Of a stretch of 64,000 nt of DNA, positions 1 to 9,141 are shown in pieces. The stretch is from Chloroflexota bacterium (lineage in GTDB: Bacteria; Chloroflexota; Anaerolineae; Anaerolineales; UBA4823), in NCBI GenBank assembly GCA_029265355.1, contig JAJUJL010000004.1:1-64000 (forward strand), in the 5' to 3' direction. Under the pieces are notes generated by a model that saw only the letters and a list, made by a program, of their open reading frames with translations, was not told the origin of the DNA and ran no database searches. Made by a program: the position numbers and the translations under genes. Position 1 is the stretch's first letter. Every line of letters begins with the position of its first letter.

Positions 1-601
1 AGCTGCCGTGCAGGCTGCCGGGCTGGTGGACACCCTCAAAGGTGAAGGCCCCTTCACTGTCTTCGCCCCCACCGATGAGGCTTTTGCCAAGCTGCCCGCC
101 GGCACCGTCGAAGACCTGCTCAAGCCCGAGAACCTCGAAACCCTCAAGAACATCCTGCTCTACCATGTCGTCTCAGGCAAGGTGATGGCCGCTGATGTGA
201 CTGCCCTGGAGAGCGCCGATACCGTCCTGGGCAAGCCGGTTACCGTCAAGGTGGACATGGGTAACGTGTACATCAACGATGCGCAGGTTGTGATCACCGA
301 CATCGAAACATCCAACGGTGTGATCCACGTCATCGACAGCGTCATTCTGCCCCCGGCAGAGCTTTCGGACATCGTTGACACCGCCGTAGCCGATGGTCGC
401 TTCACCACCCTGGTAGCTGCCGTGCAGGCTGCCGGGCTGGTGGACACCCTCAAAGGTGAAGGCCCCTTCACTGTCTTCGCCCCCACCGATGAGGCTTTTG
501 CCAAGTTGCCCGCCGGCACCGTCGAAGACCTGCTCAAGCCCGAGAACCTCGAAACCCTCAAGAACATCCTGCTCTACCATGTCGTCTCAGGCAAGGTGAT
601 G
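1..601 (+). repeat. Near-perfect 187-bp direct repeat inside the fasciclin gene
   Basis: Bases 1-187 and 415-601 are identical except for one synonymous change (C at 92, T at 506). The period is 414 bp, exactly 138 codons, so frame is kept. The following halves of the two domains differ at many synonymous sites. This suggests recent gene conversion or unequal crossing-over limited to the first part of the domain. Confidence 0.95.
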
Positions 602-784
602 TCTACCGATGTGGTCTCCCTGGATGGTCAGTCGGTCGATACGGCTCTTGAAGGCCAGCAGTTGACGATTGCGGTCAAGGAAGGCAGCGTGTTCTTGAAT
701 GAAACTGTCCAGGTTGTGATCACTGATATCGAGACATCCAATGGCGTAATCCATGTGATTGACGCGGTGCTTCTGCCTCAATAG
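2..784 (+). CDS. Fasciclin-repeat (FAS1) protein, 5'-truncated by window edge
   Basis: Two FAS1 domains are visible; the frame is open to the left edge, so the N-terminus (probably with a signal peptide and perhaps more repeats) is missing. Each domain has the H1-type stretch [17 protein letters not shown] and the H2-type stretch [17 protein letters not shown]1 domains mediate adhesion or matrix interactions and are normally secreted or surface-bound. The two copies are almost identical at DNA level over their first 187 bp but diverged afterwards. A strong hairpin terminator follows the stop codon. Family assignment is secure; the biological role is inferred. Confidence 0.93.
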
Positions 785-1361: not shown

Positions 1362-3143
1362 ATGGCTCTTTGGGTTCTTTTGATCACAATGGCAGTCGCT
1401 ATCGTAGGGTACCGCTACTATGCCACTCGCGTTGATCAGGATATTATCAAGGCTGACCCCAAGCGTGCTACCCCTGCCAAAATGTACAATGATGGTGTGG
1501 ATTTTATGCCCGCCAGCAGCAGTGTGCTCTTTGGCTACCAGTTCAAGTCCATTGCTGCCCTGGGTCCGATCGTTGGTCCCATCACTGCCGTGCAATGGGG
1601 CTGGCTACCCGCCGTACTCTGGCTGATCATCGGCGTCTTCTTTATCGGCTGGGTGCAGGACTATGCAGCCTCCATGCTCGCCATGCGCAGTGAGGGCATG
1701 ACCATGGGCGGCCTGGCCTACAAATTCATCTCGCCCCGCGCCCGCGGCATCCTGCTGGCCTTCCTGTACTTCTACCTGCTGCTGATCATGGGCGCTTTTG
1801 GCTCGATCGTTGCCGGACTGCTCGCCAGCCCCGCCATCCCCATCGGCTTCATCTTCCTTACCCTGGCGGGCGTGTTGGCCGGTCAAATGACCTACCGCTG
1901 GCGCGTCGATTTGCTGATCACCACCATTGTCACCGTGCTGCTGGCATTGGTCGGCATCTACCTGGGCACACTGCCCTGGGCGCAGAACATTGTCACCGCC
2001 ATCAACGGACTGGCCGGCGATGACAAAGGCGTGCTGTACAACACGCCTTATGGCCCGATGACCTGGGCGGTCTTCTTCTGGGGCATCGTCGCACTGCTCT
2101 TCTGCTACCTGGGTTCCGTGCTGCCCATCTGGCGTTTTGCGCAGCCAGTCAACTATGTCTCCTTCTGGTTTGTGATCCTGGGCCTGGTTGGCTCGATCAT
2201 CGGCGTTGCCATCGCCACCTTCACCGGCGCTACGGGGGTCGCCTTCGAAGTGCCCGCCTTTGTCACCTGGAACCAGCCGCACCTGGGGTGGCTATGGCCG
2301 ATCCTGTTTGTCACCATCTCTTGCGGCGCCATCTCGGGCTGGCACTCGCTGGTTTCCACCTCCGGAACCGCCCGCCAGCTTGAGAAAGAGACCGACGCCA
2401 AGCCGGTGGCGGCTGGCGCCATGTTCACCGAAGCGGTATTGGCGGTGATGGCAGTCGTATTCGCCGCTACCGCCCTCACCCGGGCTGATGGCACCGTGCT
2501 CTACGATGCCGCCGCCAACTACAAGCTGCAGGTCGCGGCTGGCGCCATCTGGGCTGGCGGCATGTCCCGCTTCCTGGGCGTCCTGGGTATTCCAGCAGCC
2601 CTGGGCGGCGCGATTGGCTCCATTTTCCTGGCAGTCATGGCGCTCACCGTTATGCAGCTCGTGCTGCGTTTCATGCGTGTCGCCTCCGCCGAGCTGATCG
2701 GCGACAAGATCACCGCCTTCAAGAACCCACATGTCGGCAGCATTGTTGCCCTTGGTTGGACCGTGCTGATCCTGTGGACCGCCTTCTGGCAGCGCATCTG
2801 GGTGCTCTTCGGCGGCGCCAACCAGCTCTTCGCTGGCCTGGCCTTGCTGCTGATCACCATCTGGTTGGTGCGCGAGGGCAAGCGCTACGCCTGGGCAATG
2901 TGGCCTGGAATTTTTATGTACGTGACCACCGTGGCTGCCTTGCTGGTGACCGCCTATAACTCGTTCTTCGGTCCCAGCGGCGCTTTTGCCGCCGAAGTGG
3001 GCGTGGCTTTCCGCATCGGCAACGGCATCGCCGGAGTCATCGGCCTGTTCCTGGCGCTGGCAGCTTTGATGTTGGCCTGGGACGGGGTGAAATCCTTCAA
3101 TCAAGCCCGTTCCAAGATGGCCGCTGCCCCGGCGGGAGATTGA
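1362..3143 (+). CDS. cstA: Carbon starvation protein CstA family transporter
   Basis: This 593-residue polytopic membrane protein carries the CstA signature FGYQFKSIAALGPIVGP at residues 57-73, with many hydrophobic helices along its length. Family members import peptides or pyruvate and are typically induced on carbon starvation. It is shorter than E. coli CstA (about 700 residues), like the many shorter family members. The ATG is preceded by the good ribosome binding site GAGGAGG. It stands alone: a terminator-like hairpin follows at 3202-3228. The substrate cannot be told from sequence. Confidence 0.95.
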   Translation: MALWVLLITMAVAIVGYRYYATRVDQDIIKADPKRATPAKMYNDGVDFMPASSSVLFGYQFKSIAALGPIVGPITAVQWGWLPAVLWLIIGVFFIGWVQDYAASMLAMRSEGMTMGGLAYKFISPRARGILLAFLYFYLLLIMGAFGSIVAGLLASPAIPIGFIFLTLAGVLAGQMTYRWRVDLLITTIVTVLLALVGIYLGTLPWAQNIVTAINGLAGDDKGVLYNTPYGPMTWAVFFWGIVALLFCYLGSVLPIWRFAQPVNYVSFWFVILGLVGSIIGVAIATFTGATGVAFEVPAFVTWNQPHLGWLWPILFVTISCGAISGWHSLVSTSGTARQLEKETDAKPVAAGAMFTEAVLAVMAVVFAATALTRADGTVLYDAAANYKLQVAAGAIWAGGMSRFLGVLGIPAALGGAIGSIFLAVMALTVMQLVLRFMRVASAELIGDKITAFKNPHVGSIVALGWTVLILWTAFWQRIWVLFGGANQLFAGLALLLITIWLVREGKRYAWAMWPGIFMYVTTVAALLVTAYNSFFGPSGAFAAEVGVAFRIGNGIAGVIGLFLALAALMLAWDGVKSFNQARSKMAAAPAGD

Positions 3144-3259: not shown

Positions 3260-3646
3260 ATGAGTAACCAGGTCTTGCAGGTCGAAGTTGTCGCCCACGT
3301 GTTGGGCAGTATGAATCATTGCGCCCATTGCCAGGTATTCATCGACGGCGTCGGCGTGGGCGAGCAAATCCACCGCAGCGATCTCGAAGCCTATCCCGAG
3401 GATTGGATGCAAGAGTGGCAGCGCCTCTCAGACCTGGTCCTCTCCTTAGCTGAGCGCTACGCCGGGCGGCTGCAAATCAAGATCACCGATGCCCAATCTC
3501 CACAGGCGTTGTGGATGGCGCTGCGCCACGGTGTGCGCAAGTACCCCACCTTCCTGATCGCGGGTGAAAAATACTTCGGCTACGAGCAGAGCAAGCTGGA
3601 AGACATCATCAACAGGCACTTGGGCAGGCTGCCATCAAGCGGGTAA
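3260..3646 (+). CDS. Thioredoxin-fold protein with CxxC motif
   Basis: This 128-residue protein has a redox-type motif (HCAHC) near residue 20 and a cis-proline-like YPTF near residue 95, the two hallmarks of a thioredoxin fold. Between them lies a long insertion with a helical, acidic stretch. A thiol-disulfide or metal-handling role is inferred. The ribosome binding site (GGGAGGAAGGG) is strong. It is the first gene of a run leading into the two ArsA-like ATPases, so a functional link is likely. No exact family name could be recognised. Confidence 0.75.
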   Translation: MSNQVLQVEVVAHVLGSMNHCAHCQVFIDGVGVGEQIHRSDLEAYPEDWMQEWQRLSDLVLSLAERYAGRLQIKITDAQSPQALWMALRHGVRKYPTFLIAGEKYFGYEQSKLEDIINRHLGRLPSSG

Positions 3647-3664
3647 GCGCTCTGGGACTAACCA

Positions 3665-4030
3665 TTGCTAGAACTGCTGATTTATTCACCGCATGATTAC
3701 GACCAAGGCGCGCCGACCGGGTTTGCCTTAACGCGCCAATATCTTGACGCCTCGCGTGTCCAAGATCCTGTCTCCAGCGCCCAACATATCGGCAAAGATG
3801 TGCAACGCGTGGTATATTACCTGTGTCGCCGCTATCCTCAGCGCATCCGTGTTCACTGGGTCAATCCCTGGTCGCTGCCGGGGCTGTGGGCTTCCTTTCG
3901 CTTCCGGCTCAGGGGCTTTCCGTGTGTGGTGATCAACCGGCGCGAAGTCCTGGGCGGAGAGCAGCTTGCCCAGCTAGAACAGCGCGTGCTCGAGATATTG
4001 GGGCAGCCATCCCAGGCAGATGGCGAATGA
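3665..4030 (+). CDS. Thioredoxin-like protein lacking CxxC
   Basis: This 121-residue protein probably starts at TTG, because an in-frame stop ends just three bases upstream. The segment RGFPCVVINRREVLGG resembles the cis-proline strand-hairpin of thioredoxin folds and of the preceding gene, but no CxxC is present near the N-terminus. It sits 18 bp after the CxxC protein and 52 bp before the small conserved protein, so it appears to be part of the same transcription unit. It may be a degenerate partner of its neighbour. Function unknown. Confidence 0.62.
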   Translation: MLELLIYSPHDYDQGAPTGFALTRQYLDASRVQDPVSSAQHIGKDVQRVVYYLCRRYPQRIRVHWVNPWSLPGLWASFRFRLRGFPCVVINRREVLGGEQLAQLEQRVLEILGQPSQADGE

Positions 4031-4082
4031 ACAGTCAACTTGCTGGCGGGTCGTCATGCCAGCTCAGATAGAGGAGAGAGCC

Positions 4083-4361
4083 ATGACTGAAGAAGAAAAG
4101 AAGAGCTTTTTACAAAAAATGAAAGAAGGGGTGTCCGATTTTATCTACGGTATGGCGGCCCACGAGGCCACCCGCCAGGCGCTCAAAACCCGCGGTAGTA
4201 TGGAGCACCTCTTCATCCTGATTACCATGGGCGACCTGCTGGGTGTGCCAATCTTGCCGCCCTATTACTCGCTGCGCCTGCTGCCTTATGTGGTGCCCCA
4301 GATTTCCACCTGGAAGCGCCGCATGCTGCGAGAAAAAGACCTCGTGGACGCGCTGGCGTGA
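4083..4361 (+). CDS. Small conserved protein with PPYYSLRLLPY block (copy 1)
   Basis: This 92-residue protein starts at the ATG at 4083, preceded by GAGGAGAGAG; an upstream in-frame start at 4020 lacks a ribosome binding site. Residues from about 40 to the end closely match the product of 8049-8324: both have EHLF.LI..GDL.GVPILPP, then YYSLRLLPY.VP and RRMLREKDL. The central part is hydrophobic and may form a membrane hairpin. It lies 8 bp upstream of the first ArsA-like gene. Function unknown; it could be a membrane anchor, receptor or client for the ATPases. Confidence 0.8.
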   Translation: MTEEEKKSFLQKMKEGVSDFIYGMAAHEATRQALKTRGSMEHLFILITMGDLLGVPILPPYYSLRLLPYVVPQISTWKRRMLREKDLVDALA

Positions 4362-4369
4362 GGTGAGAT

Positions 4370-5356
4370 ATGTCGCTTGCCAGCGTTTTTCGCGATAATC
4401 CTAAGCGCCGCTACATCATGTTTGGCGGCAAAGGCGGCCTGGGCAAGACCACTTTTTCCGCCGCTACAGCCTACTGGCTGGCTCAGCAGGGGAAGCGAGT
4501 GTTGGTCTTCTCCGTTGACCCCCAGGCTTCACTCTCCGATATTTTCCAGCGCGACATCTTCGGCAAAGGCGCCGTCGAGATCATGCCCAACCTGTATGCC
4601 CAGGAAATCGACGCCGACCAGCATATCAAGGCATACCAGGATCAGATCCGCAAGAAGATCCTCGACATGTACGGCATGGAACAGATCCCCGATGAGATCG
4701 AGAGTTATATCCAGGCCGCTTCCGCCGAGCCCGCCATGGAAGAATCAGCCATCTTCGACCAGGTGGTAGACATCGTCGTCGCCGGCGAATACGACTATTA
4801 CATCTACGATCTGGTGCCGCTCGGTCATGCTCTCTACTACCTTTCCATGGCCAGCGTCTACGACCAATGGATCAGCAAGATCACCGCCCTGCGCGAAGAG
4901 ATGCGCGAGTATGAACAGATGGCGGCCCGCATCTCCCGCAAGAAAGAGACCGAAGAAGATCAGATCCTGCGCGAACTGCAGGATATCAAGTACCGCATCT
5001 CCACTTCCTCCAGCATCCTGACCGACAAAGAAAAGACCGCCTTCTTCTTCGTCATCGTGCCCGAGGAGATGATCCTGATCGATACTCAGAACGCCGCTCG
5101 CCTGTTTTCCAAATACGATGTACCAATCAGCGGTTACATCGTTAATCGCGTCATCCCACCCTACCTGATGCAGTCCGAGCACCTGCCCGATTACCTGCGC
5201 AATCGCTACGAAATGCAGCAGCAATACCTGGCCAAGATCGATAGCTTGTTCGGCGACGGTGTGCTGGCGCGCGTGCTGGAGATGGAACGCGACGTCGCCG
5301 GGCTACCCATGATCGAGCGCATGGCCAAGTCGATGTTCGGGGAGGAGAAGCTGTGA
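4370..5356 (+). CDS. ArsA/Get3-like ATPase, copy A
   Basis: This 328-residue ATPase has the deviant Walker A of the SIMIBI class, GGKGGLGKTT (residues 19-28), and an intact switch I with Asp50 (VDPQASLSD). The switch II region, normally DTAPTGH, reads DLVPLGH (147-153). The length fits a single-domain Get3-type protein, half the size of E. coli ArsA. There is no cysteine in the whole protein, so neither the ArsA arsenite site nor the Get3 CxxC zinc site exists. The stop overlaps the next gene by one base (TGATG). Probably half of a heterodimer with copy B; the client is unknown. Confidence 0.9.
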   Translation: MSLASVFRDNPKRRYIMFGGKGGLGKTTFSAATAYWLAQQGKRVLVFSVDPQASLSDIFQRDIFGKGAVEIMPNLYAQEIDADQHIKAYQDQIRKKILDMYGMEQIPDEIESYIQAASAEPAMEESAIFDQVVDIVVAGEYDYYIYDLVPLGHALYYLSMASVYDQWISKITALREEMREYEQMAARISRKKETEEDQILRELQDIKYRISTSSSILTDKEKTAFFFVIVPEEMILIDTQNAARLFSKYDVPISGYIVNRVIPPYLMQSEHLPDYLRNRYEMQQQYLAKIDSLFGDGVLARVLEMERDVAGLPMIERMAKSMFGEEKL

Positions 5357-6348
5357 TGAGCACAATCACCATCGAAAAATCCATGGCCCAGTTCGTCGAT
5401 GAGAACCCGGGGCTCAAATACATTTTCTTCGGTGGCAAAGGCGGCGTGGGCAAAACTGTCCTGGCTGGCGCGGCAGCCGTGGCTTTCGCCAAGCGCGGCA
5501 AACGCACCTTGCTAGCCTCCACTAACCCGGTGCACAGCCTGTCTGGCCTGCTAACGCAGAATGTCTTCGGCAAACCGGTCCCCGTGCAAGGCGTTCCCAA
5601 CCTGTGGGCTTTCGAGATCGACACCAAGGACACTATCGAGCGCTCCAAGAACGAGATTCGCGAGAAGATTTCCTGGTTTCTCAAGTTTGCCGAGATCAAA
5701 GGCAAAGCCGACGAGTTCATCGAATCTGCCACCATGAACCCGGCTTTCGAGGAATCGGCCATGTTCGAGAACATGATCGACATCATGTTCAAGGATGAGT
5801 ACGAGGTGTACGTCTTCGACACCGCTCCCACCGCCAACGCCCGCCGCCTGCTGGGCATGTCGTCGGTGTATTCCTTGTGGGTCAATAAAATGATGGAGAG
5901 CCGCAAAGAAGCCCAGGCAATGCGCATCCGGCTCTCGTACAGCAACAAGGCCAAGGAAGAAAAAGATCCGCTGATGGATTACCTGATCGATTTCCAAAAG
6001 CGCATGGGGCGCGCCAAGAACCTGCTCACCGACCCGGCCAAAACCTCCTTTTTCTTCGTCACCCTGCCGGAAGCGCTGCCCATCGCCGTGATCAAGCGTT
6101 TCATCAACTGGTTTCACGAGTTTGGCATACCGGTGGGCGGTGTGATCGTCAACATGCGCATCGACAAAGAGTCGGTCGACGCCAAGGCGGATGAGTTCGT
6201 GCGCAACCGGATTGCCATGCAAGATGGCTACATGAAGGAGATTGAGCAGCAGTTCGACAACCTGGTGCGCAGCGTGCTGCCGCTCTATGATACCGAAGTG
6301 CGCGGCGTTGCCATGCTGGAGCGTATGGCCGATATGCTCTTTGCCTAG
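5356..6348 (+). CDS. ArsA/Get3-like ATPase, copy B
   Basis: This 330-residue paralogue of the preceding ATPase starts at ATG 5356, overlapping its stop by one base, with GGAGGAG upstream. Walker A is GGKGGVGKTV (26-35). The switch I Asp of the family is replaced by Asn57 (TNPVHSLSG), the same change as the well-known hydrolysis-dead D57N Get3 mutant. Switch II is DTAPTAN (155-161), losing the usual Gly-His. It also has no cysteine. This looks like a nucleotide-binding but weakly hydrolysing partner of copy A. An arsenite-pump role is unlikely. Confidence 0.9.
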   Translation: MSTITIEKSMAQFVDENPGLKYIFFGGKGGVGKTVLAGAAAVAFAKRGKRTLLASTNPVHSLSGLLTQNVFGKPVPVQGVPNLWAFEIDTKDTIERSKNEIREKISWFLKFAEIKGKADEFIESATMNPAFEESAMFENMIDIMFKDEYEVYVFDTAPTANARRLLGMSSVYSLWVNKMMESRKEAQAMRIRLSYSNKAKEEKDPLMDYLIDFQKRMGRAKNLLTDPAKTSFFFVTLPEALPIAVIKRFINWFHEFGIPVGGVIVNMRIDKESVDAKADEFVRNRIAMQDGYMKEIEQQFDNLVRSVLPLYDTEVRGVAMLERMADMLFA

Positions 6349-6360
6349 TCGCAAAAAGGC

Positions 6361-6401
6361 AGGTTCTGGCAGATCCAGCTTGAATGGGCGTGCCAGAACC
6401 T
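6361..6401 (+). terminator. Inverted repeat after ArsA-like copy B
   Basis: AGGTTCTGGCA (6361-6371) pairs perfectly with TGCCAGAACCT (6391-6401) around a 19-nt loop, 12 bp after the stop codon. No T tract follows, so it may be a terminator or an mRNA-stabilising structure before the next gene. Confidence 0.5.
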
Positions 6402-6415
6402 GCTTCTGAGTAGCG

Positions 6416-6928
6416 GTGCTCTGCGGGCGTTTGGCGCGGGAGGCCAAAATCGAGACACTGGAAAAGCACGACATCTACGCCGGCAACAACATCTTCGGCG
6501 AAGCGCTCTTCCTGCGCCTGCCCCTGCCTCCGAGCTGGGAGCTGGCCCCTGGCGTGAGCCGCCCGGAAGTGTCCGCCACCCATGAACGCCGCAGCCGTTC
6601 CTGGGTGGTGAGCGGTAGCGCCTGGTTCGTCGTGCACCAACCGGAGCAAAAATGGGCGCTGGAGCTGGCGCTCCACTTGCGCCCGTGGCGCAAGTCCACC
6701 GCCCAGCTCGAAGGCGGCGAGATCAGCATCGCCGGGCACCCCGCCCGCCTGGCATGGCGCACCCGCCGGCGCGGCCTGCCATGGAACCGCCACGACGTCA
6801 CTTTCATGACTATCGATTTCGCCTGCCCGCTCTCGGAGCGACGCATCCAATTGGAATTCAGCGGTTGGTGTCCCGAGATTGGTTTTCAGGAAATGCTGCA
6901 AGCCATGCGCGAGCTTTCATGTCATTGA
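6416..6928 (+). CDS. Hypothetical protein in the ArsA-like cluster
   Basis: This 170-residue protein (GTG start; a TTG at 6431 is an alternative, neither with a clear ribosome binding site) has alternating hydrophobic and charged stretches that suggest a beta-rich soluble fold (for example SWVVSGSAWFVVH and RHDVTFMTIDFACPL). No signal peptide or membrane segment is seen and no family was recognised. It follows the ArsA-like pair after a hairpin and precedes a repeat array. It may belong to the same system, by position only. Confidence 0.6.
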   Translation: MLCGRLAREAKIETLEKHDIYAGNNIFGEALFLRLPLPPSWELAPGVSRPEVSATHERRSRSWVVSGSAWFVVHQPEQKWALELALHLRPWRKSTAQLEGGEISIAGHPARLAWRTRRRGLPWNRHDVTFMTIDFACPLSERRIQLEFSGWCPEIGFQEMLQAMRELSCH

Positions 6929-7010
6929 GCAAAGCCACCCCGCTTGGCGCGCGGCAGCGCACAACCCGCCCGCGCCGACTGCATCATGTCACGCCCGGGT
7001 TCGGCGCCTC

Positions 7011-7145
7011 GACCAACACCCGTAGGGATGGGTTTGTACCAGCAAGGCAGGCTGGATGGCCGAACCGCCCATCAGGCTTCTCAATCTGGACAACTCGGGC
7101 AAAAACCCATCCCACACCTGCAGAGGCCTCCCGAGGAGGGGAGGG
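7011..7145 (+). repeat. Palindromic repeat family A, tandem copy 1
   Basis: This 135-bp unit matches 7153-7287 with one mismatch (C at 7115, T at 7257). It begins near GTAGGGATGGGTTTGTACC and contains the complementary AAACCCATCCC, so each unit can fold into a hairpin. Related copies occur at 11254, 27117, 27239, 34836 and 34952. All lie outside genes, which fits a REP- or MITE-like element. Confidence 0.92.
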
Positions 7146-7152
7146 TAAGCCC

Positions 7153-7287
7153 GACCAACACCCGTAGGGATGGGTTTGTACCAGCAAGGCAGGCTGGATG
7201 GCCGAACCGCCCATCAGGCTTCTCAATCTGGACAACTCGGGCAAAAACCCATCCCATACCTGCAGAGGCCTCCCGAGGAGGGGAGGG
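7153..7287 (+). repeat. Palindromic repeat family A, tandem copy 2
   Basis: Second unit of the tandem pair, with a period of 142 bp. Together with flanking sequence the pair fills the gene-free stretch 6929-7332, where no other feature was seen. Confidence 0.92.
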
Positions 7288-7332
7288 AGGGCGGTTTGAA
7301 TTGAGCCTTTCAGGCTAAGCCCAGAATTCGAG

Positions 7333-8010
7333 TTATATATCCTGAAAGAGTTCTCTCAGCTCCTTAAAAAACTGCTCCGCTGGCTGGCTGCGCACATCTG
7401 GCAATTGGCTCTGCAAGATCAGATGCGGCTTGCCCTTCTGCAGCGAGAGGCGCCTGACCTGGCCTGGGTAGCGACCTAAAAACTCGCGCACCCCCTGCTG
7501 CAGCCGGGCAGAATGCACACCGCGCCAGGCCACATCCAGCCCGCCTTCAATCGCGGCGCGGGAATAGGGATTCTTCAGATCGCGCGTCAGCGCGCTCTCG
7601 AATTCTCGCTCGCCAGCCTTGCCGGCCTCGATCTCAGCCGCTGGCGCCCCGCGCAGGGTGGCTTTCAAGATTATCTGGTCGCGTTTGCCACGCAGCCGGT
7701 TGAAGATCCACAGCGGCAGGATCTCGCGCGATTCCAGCAGGTAAATGGCCTCGATGCGCTGGAAGGGTTTATCCGGGTTTTCCAGCACCAGCCTGCCGCC
7801 TGAGCCGGATGAACCAATCCAGGCCGCCTGGCTGATCTCACCGAGCTGCTTCAAACCAGTGCGCATCCAGGCATACACCCCCAATCCACGCTTCCGGTTG
7901 ATCACCGCGAACACGAAATACCAGGCTGCCAGGAAAATTGATAGAATAATGACAATCTGTTGTCCGGTATCCAAGATGGCCTCCAAGCTTTCAAGGATGG
8001 GGCAAACCAC
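7333..8010 (-). CDS. Hypothetical single-pass membrane protein
   Basis: This 225-residue protein (GTG start) has one hydrophobic helix at about residues 17-37 (IVIILSIFLAAWYFVFAV) and then a long basic, probably cytoplasmic, domain of mixed alpha/beta character. No recognised motif is present. It is divergent from, and only 38 bp away from, the small protein at 8049, and points back at the ArsA-like cluster. Function unknown. Confidence 0.65.
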   Translation of the reverse strand: MVCPILESLEAILDTGQQIVIILSIFLAAWYFVFAVINRKRGLGVYAWMRTGLKQLGEISQAAWIGSSGSGGRLVLENPDKPFQRIEAIYLLESREILPLWIFNRLRGKRDQIILKATLRGAPAAEIEAGKAGEREFESALTRDLKNPYSRAAIEGGLDVAWRGVHSARLQQGVREFLGRYPGQVRRLSLQKGKPHLILQSQLPDVRSQPAEQFFKELRELFQDI

Positions 8011-8048
8011 TCCAATCAGGTTTATTGTTCATACTCACTTGAGGTGCT

Positions 8049-8324
8049 ATGAGAAAAATCATCGCCAGGCTCAAGTCCTACTATGAATGGCTGCGCGGCT
8101 TCATGTACGGCATGATGGTCTACGATATGGTGCGCGGATTCCGCCGCCAGCGCGGCGACCTGGAGCACCTCTTCGTGCTGATTTCCTTTGGCGACCTGAT
8201 CGGCGTGCCCATCCTGCCGCCCTACTACTCCTTGCGCCTGCTGCCCTACATCGTGCCCATGATCAACCTGTGGCGGCGGCGCATGCTGCGCGAAAAAGAC
8301 CTGACCGATTTGGTTGCCGATTAG
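8049..8324 (+). CDS. Small conserved protein with PPYYSLRLLPY block (copy 2)
   Basis: This 91-residue paralogue of the 4083-4361 product shares the same order of motifs: LEHLFVLISFGDLIGVP, then ILPPYYSLRLLPYIVP and RRRMLREKDLTDL. The N-terminus differs, being more basic (MRKIIARLKSYYEWLRGF). The shared block is hydrophobic with a double proline and aromatic pair, perhaps a membrane-inserted hairpin. It lies 28 bp upstream of an SDR gene and may be co-transcribed with it. Function unknown. Confidence 0.78.
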   Translation: MRKIIARLKSYYEWLRGFMYGMMVYDMVRGFRRQRGDLEHLFVLISFGDLIGVPILPPYYSLRLLPYIVPMINLWRRRMLREKDLTDLVAD

Positions 8325-8352: not shown

Positions 8353-9141
8353 ATGGACTTAGGACTGAAAAACCAGGTAGCCCTGGTCACCGCCGCCTCC
8401 AAAGGGCTGGGCAAAGCCGCCGCCCTGGCCTTTGCCCGCGAGGGCGCCAGAGTGGCCATCTGCGCCCGCAGCGAGCTGCTCGAACAAACCGCGGCCGAGA
8501 TCCGCCGCGAAACCGGCGCCGAAGTGCTGGCCGTGCGCGCCGACGTCACCCAACAGCAGGATGTTGACAAGCTGGTCAAAGCCACGCTGGAGACCTTCGG
8601 GCAGATCGACATCCTGATCATCAACGCTGGCGGACCGCCGCCGGGCGGCTTCTTGAACTTCAAACCGGAAGACTGGGAAAAAGCCTGCCAGCTCACCCTG
8701 ATGAGCGCTGTGCGTTTGTGCTACGCAGTTGTACCGCACATGCTGGAACGCGGCTCGGGCAGCATCGTCACCACTCAGTCGTACTCGGTCAAGCAGCCCA
8801 TCGACAACCTGATCCTGTCCAACTCGCTGCGCATGGCGGTGATTGGCTTGATGAAATCGCTGGCCAACGAGCTGGGACCGAGAGGCATCCGCGTCAACTC
8901 GATCAACCCCGCCTGGACATGGACCGAAAGAGTAGATCAATTGATGCACGACCGCGCCGCTCGCGCCGGCACCACCGCCGAGCAGGAGGCCTCCAAGATC
9001 ACCGTAGCCGTGCCGCTGGGGCGCATGGGTACGGTGGAGGAGTTCGGAAAGGCCATCGCCTGGCTGGCCTCGCCGGCGGCCTCTTTCGTCCACGGGCACG
9101 CCCTGATGTTCGATGGGGGAGCGACCAAGGCTTCGCTGTAA
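8353..9141 (+). CDS. SDR-family oxidoreductase with atypical active site
   Basis: This 262-residue Rossmann protein starts at ATG 8353 (AAGGAG upstream); an upstream in-frame start at 8314 lacks a site. The cofactor motif reads TAASKGLG and the NAG strand is NAGG. Where FabG-like enzymes have catalytic YxxxK, the aligned region is NLILSNSLRMAVIGL, so Tyr becomes Ser and Lys becomes Arg. A known FabG-like SDR subgroup (3-oxoacyl-ACP-reductase-like) lacks the canonical tetrad in this way. The reaction is therefore uncertain. A perfect 15-bp terminator hairpin follows. Confidence 0.88.
   Translation: MDLGLKNQVALVTAASKGLGKAAALAFAREGARVAICARSELLEQTAAEIRRETGAEVLAVRADVTQQQDVDKLVKATLETFGQIDILIINAGGPPPGGFLNFKPEDWEKACQLTLMSAVRLCYAVVPHMLERGSGSIVTTQSYSVKQPIDNLILSNSLRMAVIGLMKSLANELGPRGIRVNSINPAWTWTERVDQLMHDRAARAGTTAEQEASKITVAVPLGRMGTVEEFGKAIAWLASPAASFVHGHALMFDGGATKASL

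Follow-up and report, generated by a model that had tools for sequence, protein, structure and literature searches.

A CstA-associated gene cluster with an obligate, asymmetric pair of ArsA/Get3-type ATPases in Chloroflexota and other bacteria

What do two adjacent ArsA-like ATPases do in a gene cluster that has no arsenic genes? The question arises from a block of eight genes in a Chloroflexota bacterium (Anaerolineales, UBA4823; contig JAJUJL010000004.1 of assembly GCA_029265355.1), for which coordinates are given here within the 64-kb stretch of DNA analysed (the window). An initial annotation had combined these genes—encoding two thioredoxin-like proteins (P1 and P2), a paralogous pair of small proteins (S1 and S2, together S), two ArsA/Get3-type ATPases (A1 and A2), a protein without assigned family (U) and a membrane protein (M)—into a candidate undescribed system for membrane-protein handling, targeting or redox-linked assembly. 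All eight open reading frames (ORFs) were recovered at or near the positions it had assigned. Its block was cut too short and missed the adjoining transporter gene: the conserved cluster extends upstream to cstA (1362–3143), and the CstA transporter, a carbon-starvation protein of pyruvate type, is part of the system. The association of these genes is far beyond chance, which bears out the view that they form one system, and A1 and A2 are an ancient, obligate, asymmetric pair. Judging from protein anatomy and gene context, we lean towards the view that A1 and A2, together with S, serve as an accessory ATPase module of a CstA uptake system, energising or gating it.

Layout of the cluster

The genes of the cluster in the window are listed below, with lengths in amino acids (aa) and distances in base pairs (bp).

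cstA, 1362–3143, + strand: CstA-family transporter, 593 aa (Pfam CstA, E 5.7e-110), 116 bp upstream of P1
P1, 3260–3646, + strand: thioredoxin-like protein with CxxC (HCAHC), 128 aa
P2, 3665–4030, + strand: P1 paralogue without CxxC, 121 aa, TTG start
S1, 4083–4361, + strand: CstX-like small protein, 92 aa, no cysteine
A1, 4370–5356, + strand: single-domain ArsA/Get3-type ATPase, 328 aa, above the TIGR00345 cut-off
A2, 5356–6348, + strand: single-domain ArsA/Get3-type ATPase, 330 aa, above the TIGR00345 cut-off
U, 6416–6928, + strand: protein of 170 aa with no Pfam or NCBIfam match
M, 7333–8010, − strand: protein of 225 aa, with a single membrane helix at the N terminus plus a cytosolic domain
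S2, 8049–8324, + strand: second CstX-like protein, 91 aa

For S1, an ATG start at 4083, preceded by AGAGGAGAG, appears more likely than a start at 4020. The tight junctions first described for this block are present in the sequence, with 8 bp between S1 and A1 and a single base shared by A1 and A2 (TGATG). Cysteines are absent from A1, A2, S1 and S2, as had been reported for the two ATPases. The usual order of the cassette in relatives is CstA–[P1]–S–S–A1–A2, with P1 sometimes 5' of CstA; its frequent neighbors are M (mostly on the other strand), U, an additional S and a short-chain dehydrogenase gene.

Co-occurrence and distribution

Two co-occurrence tests were anchored on the ATPases rather than on the small protein, the first covering 61 close relatives and the second 251 evenly drawn Chloroflexota genomes. 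Among the close relatives, S was present in 13/13 genomes with adjacent A1–A2, and a strong S match in 0/48 others (Fisher 1.5e-13); CstA was present in 12/13 genomes with the pair and in 5/48 without it (Fisher 4e-8). Across the 251 genomes, A2 was found in 34, S in 33 and CstA in 35, with all three in 30. CstA and the pair occurred together in 32 of these genomes, CstA only in 3, the pair only in 2 and neither in 214 (Fisher 1e-34), and S and the pair occurred together in 32, with 1 and 2 genomes carrying one alone. The ATPases are therefore not scattered without the small protein, which accompanies them in 32/34 Chloroflexota genomes and in 13/13 of the other set. Several exceptions lie at a contig end (G194) or in incomplete genomes (G062, 73% completeness; G289, 89%).

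Pooling all collections gave 119 loci with A1, with some overlap where the same genome entered through two collections. CstA lies near the cassette in 96/107 loci with room for it. S lies upstream of A1 in 116/117 loci with room, its presence being partly by construction at loci found through S; the presence of A2 and CstA is not subject to this. In three genomes the parts are separated: the cluster of G015 is split over two places of one chromosome, and in G265 and G249 CstA lies apart from the A1–A2 pair. All parts are nevertheless present in these genomes, which favors a functional association over mere linkage.

When one genome was scanned for each species, 418 S-encoding stretches were obtained; the best 80 of these were fetched and include members of Chloroflexota, Methylomirabilota, Thermodesulfobacteriota, Myxococcota, Betaproteobacteria, Planctomycetota, Spirochaetota and Desantisbacteria. 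The order CstA–S (one or two)–A1–A2 recurs in Chloroflexota and at least seven other bacterial lineages.

An asymmetric pair of ATPases

A1 and A2 match Pfam ArsA_ATPase (E 1e-71 and 2e-67), both pass the cut-off of TIGR00345, the model of the GET3/ArsA/TRC40 subfamily, and the solved structures nearest to them are the archaeal Get3-type proteins 3ug6 and 3zq6 (E 2e-59). In all 106 of the 106 loci that offer room for it, A2 lies directly 3' of A1 and in the same orientation. In a tree of 33 sequences of each, A1 forms one clade (99/97) and A2 another (100/95), and these clades span Chloroflexota, Methylomirabilota, Planctomycetota, Pseudomonadota, Thermodesulfobacteriota, Myxococcota and Spirochaetota. 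Because each protein forms one clade, with sub-clades that recur in both halves of the tree, the pair goes back to a single old duplication that has since been passed on, by inheritance and transfer, as a unit.

The family match to ArsA raises the question of whether the pair could be an efflux ATPase for arsenite or another metalloid, a function that the gene context makes very improbable. The constant partner of the pair is CstA, none of ArsB, ArsD or ArsR is encoded in the cluster, and beyond the cysteine-free proteins of the window, A1 lacks cysteine in 101/117 relatives and A2 in 85/111. By comparison, ArsA of arsenical operons, which belongs to the same ATPase superfamily and likewise has two P-loop units acting together, consists of a single chain of 600 aa that carries As(III)-binding cysteines, whereas here the units are two separate cysteine-free chains. 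The same genome encodes a true arsenic set on another contig (C26; L011:4814–7493), comprising an ArsR-like protein, ArsD and a two-domain ArsA of 618 aa. The reported lack of arsenic genes thus holds for the block but not for the genome, and a role in arsenic resistance was rejected on the combined grounds of missing cysteines, missing ars genes in the cluster and an ars operon elsewhere.

The two members of the pair differ at the active site. A1 has the Walker A motif GKGGLGKT, a switch I motif S[VT]DPQAS with Asp in 117/117 relatives, and a switch II motif DLVPLGHA that replaces the canonical DTAPTGHT. A2 has the Walker A motif GKGGVGKT, a switch I motif S[TL]NPVHS with Asn instead of the catalytic Asp in 111/111 relatives, and a switch II motif, DTAPTANA, that keeps most of the canonical form. 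The Asp of A1 and the Asn of A2 align with the Asp of the archaeal Get3 motif STDPAHS, a position that we take to be D57 in yeast Get3. D57 of the yeast protein is essential for hydrolysis, and the D57N variant holds ATP uncleaved (PMC12506534). Since Asn occupies the catalytic position in A2, this protein is predicted to bind ATP in its own site without cleaving it, which would leave A1, with its altered switch II, as the only candidate for turnover.

Across essentially all relatives, the two half-sites show complementary degeneration, which is also consistent with a pair that does not hydrolyse ATP but acts as a nucleotide or redox sensor, reading the ATP/ADP ratio, and the thiol state via P1, to shut or open CstA in starvation without powering it. 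The frequent presence of P1 with CxxC fits such a sensor, which we regard as improbable: conserving Walker A and the switch I Asp, as A1 does, would be costly if hydrolysis were irrelevant. A sensor would also overlap with the CstA-module reading and is inseparable from it by sequence.

The main rival to an accessory CstA module is a Get3-like biogenesis factor, in which A1 and A2 would catch hydrophobic segments of CstA or of the CstX-like S proteins post-translationally and deliver them to the membrane, with the thioredoxin-like proteins shielding the cargo from oxidation. The archaeal Get3-type structures and the subfamily model named above favor this assignment, as does a borderline membrane segment in S. 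Neither A1 nor A2 has a cysteine at the position aligned with the zinc-binding CxxC of Get3, yet some Get3 proteins tolerate the loss of CxxC alone (PMC10248533). In addition, the part of A1 and A2 that corresponds in the alignment to the hydrophobic helix of Get3 is shorter and more charged (30–31% versus 17%), a comparison with only two archaeal Get3 references. A chaperone dedicated to one polytopic permease would be unusual, as the signal recognition particle is expected to serve a permease, and a Get1/Get2-like insertase was not seen among the genes of the cluster, where no systematic search for one was made. This evidence is suggestive, not decisive, and we consider Get3-like delivery unlikely. 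The initial proposal of a membrane-protein machine was thus right in that the system concerns a membrane protein; its targeting or assembly function is possible but less likely.

A diverged branch of the cassette was observed at four loci (L106, L112, L120 and L124, in G142, G207, G260 and G291), where A1 and A2 are 44–52% identical to those of the window. Switch II of A1 reads DMPPFGHG in this branch, a single core S lies upstream of A1, and a distant pair of P1-like and S-like genes lies downstream.

Small proteins

S2 is 59% identical to S1, in agreement with their description as paralogues, and at least two S copies occur at 83/119 loci. The hydrophobic maxima of S1 and S2 (1.59 and 1.74) correspond to borderline membrane segments. 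A structure model of S is helical with a break at PPYY; its confidence was low (predicted template modelling score, pTM, 0.32), and it was left out of the fold search.

A Pfam scan returned no match for S1 and only a chance-level match for S2. Membership in the YbdD family (PF04328) was rejected, as S has no match to this Pfam family. The NCBIfam model NF041419 (cory-CC-star) gave 34 and 33 bits for S1 and S2 against a cut-off of 80 bits. All 25 of 25 S family members matched it weakly and below cut-off, and it was above cut-off in 0/251 Chloroflexota genomes. A C-terminal CC is absent from all S proteins listed, and a literature search found no paper naming cory-CC-star. Assignment of S to this family was rejected, given scores far under the cut-off and the missing CC end; the homology is weak only. 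Plasmid records searched for encoded S contained none.

A third small protein is encoded elsewhere in the genome (contig C31:190944; L010:4909–5232), directly behind an AIM24-family gene; it is 37% identical to S2, lacks the PPYY motif and is a distant paralogue that was set aside. Diverged copies resembling it, away from A1–A2, occur in G042, G048 and G054.

Thioredoxin-like proteins and other members

P1 has thioredoxin topology, a CxxC motif and a proline ahead of the third strand. Its structure model has a predicted local distance difference test (pLDDT) score of 86, with elements in thioredoxin order. The best Foldseek matches of this model are thioredoxins (probability 1.00, but E 1.7e-3 and a template modelling score of about 0.5), and thioredoxins are likewise the matches of the P1 profile in the PDB (best E 3e-4). 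Within the family, C16, C19 and P91 are conserved, and CxxC is present in 56/78 members. P2 has no Pfam match; its paralogy to P1 is evident from an hhalign probability of 98.8 against the P1 family, iterated P1 and P2 profiles arrive at the same 78 ORFs, and P2 is confined to the lineage of the window. The distinction originally drawn between a protein with CxxC (HCAHC in P1) and one without therefore stands. P1 is present at 61 of 119 A1 loci and, being absent from half of the clusters, is considered an accessory rather than a core part. The redox link suggested earlier thus finds partial support: thioredoxin-like genes do recur, though no more than about half of the clusters have them.

Pfam scans of U and M returned no match, and U has none in NCBIfam either. 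The U family has 24 members, and orthologues of U lie mostly behind A2. M, for which a family alignment was built, has one strong hydrophobic segment and is present at 58/119 loci, mainly on the opposite strand.

Three further features were noted in the window. A short-chain dehydrogenase gene follows the cassette (8353–9141) and is placed likewise in several relatives; it may be a member of the cluster or a mere neighbor. Between U and M (7010–7287) lie two direct 136-nucleotide copies, 99% identical at a spacing of 142, with inverted arms GGGATGGGTTTGTACC / GGCAAAAACCCATCCC. Only one further match occurs in the genome, and it is weak (70%), so the repeat is a duplication of local extent, not an abundant element. 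At the left edge of the window (8–784) are two fasciclin domains, the ORF start there being an artefact of the window cut.

Relation to known systems

The claim that the system is undescribed did not survive comparison with the literature. Castillo and Saier (2010) described cstA-cstX-arsA clusters without ars genes (their ArsA clusters 14–18), with CstA accompanied by an ArsA homologue in 26 cases and by CstX in 24 (PMC2963123). In their account, CstX has about 90 aa and at most one membrane segment, some archaea have a CstY of about 210 aa with one membrane segment, and the trees of CstA, CstX and the ArsA homologue match; they proposed that the ArsA homologues energise CstA, with CstX as a linker (PMC2963123). 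Adjacent ATPase pairs were noted in two organisms and paralogous CstX in a few, homodimers were suggested, and the D of the SXD motif was reported as sometimes N, without being tied to a partner (PMC2963123).

The window system is of this known kind and matches it in all features compared: CstA, a small protein of about 90 aa, single-domain ArsA homologues of about 330 aa, no arsenic genes and none of the three arsenic cysteines. S fits CstX in its size, membrane segment and place beside cstA, and the resemblance of M to archaeal CstY is limited to size and layout. The present clusters differ in that there are always two ATPases, each an old clade with opposite active-site changes, in the added genes for thioredoxin-like proteins, M and U, and in the far larger number of genomes. 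Obligate asymmetric pairing, a doubled small protein as the rule and the thioredoxin-like genes look new. Beyond Castillo and Saier, the literature search found no paper joining CstX with CstA or ArsA.

Two other systems offer partial parallels. In E. coli, pyruvate is taken up by CstA-family proteins, of which CstA depends on the small partner YbdD for this import (PMC5847655). The E. coli pairs CstA–YbdD and BtsT–YjiX share with the present system a CstA-family permease and, for CstA, a small partner protein, but they have no ATPases, and S lies outside the YbdD family, of which no member was found in the 61 relatives, CstA-bearing ones included. BagA and BagB of M. tuberculosis (Rv3679/Rv3680) are two adjacent non-identical ATPases (PMC10597346) and, with Get3/TRC40, share the fold family of A1 and A2, which differ from these proteins in lacking the zinc CxxC and in having CstA as partner. 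Orthology to BagAB was rejected: the BagA structure 6bs3 matches weakly (E 8e-6), and the NCBIfam BagA and BagB models scored A1 at 48.6 and 38.5 bits and A2 at 45.0 and 34.3 bits, far under their cut-offs of 400 and 521.

Proposed function

We propose the following model for the accessory ATPase module, in line with the one put forward by Castillo and Saier. CstA would act as the permease, and the two S paralogues as membrane-proximal helical adaptors that stand in for a YbdD-like partner and link the A1–A2 dimer to CstA. A1 and A2 would form one obligate heterodimer of the Get3/ArsA fold, whose composite sites would be non-equivalent because A1 keeps the switch I Asp and A2 has Asn. The A2 site may remain ATP-bound and closed, with the A1 site providing slow turnover or nucleotide sensing. 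Docked through the CstX-like protein on the cytosolic face of CstA, the dimer would drive or gate transport according to ATP. As A1, A2 and S are cysteine-free, the CxxC of P1 would tune a cysteine partner outside the dimer. More tentatively, and with less confidence than in the module itself, we suggest that an asymmetric heterodimer with one subunit frozen at the catalytic Asp could constitute a dedicated ATP-driven, thiol-tuned subunit of CstA, giving a hybrid, ATP-coupled uptake of pyruvate-like substrates.

Several observations weigh against a CstA module. CstA of E. coli needs no such ATPase, and 5/17 CstA-bearing genomes among the 61 close relatives have CstA without the pair, so that CstA activity does not generally depend on the pair. 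About half of the loci lack thioredoxin-like genes. Judging by its motif, switch II of A1 might be so altered that the dimer hydrolyses very little ATP. To our knowledge, ArsA energising ArsB is the sole precedent for such an arrangement.

Implications

Annotation of these genes as Get3 or as ATPases of an arsenical pump should be avoided. Across several phyla, A2 carries a fixed natural Asn in place of the catalytic Asp, which provides a ready-made test of the importance of each site. Should the pair prove to power or gate CstA, this would be the second case, after ArsA–ArsB, of an intracellular ATPase added to a carrier, and would explain the abundance of single-domain ArsA homologues in organisms where these proteins are unconnected with arsenic.

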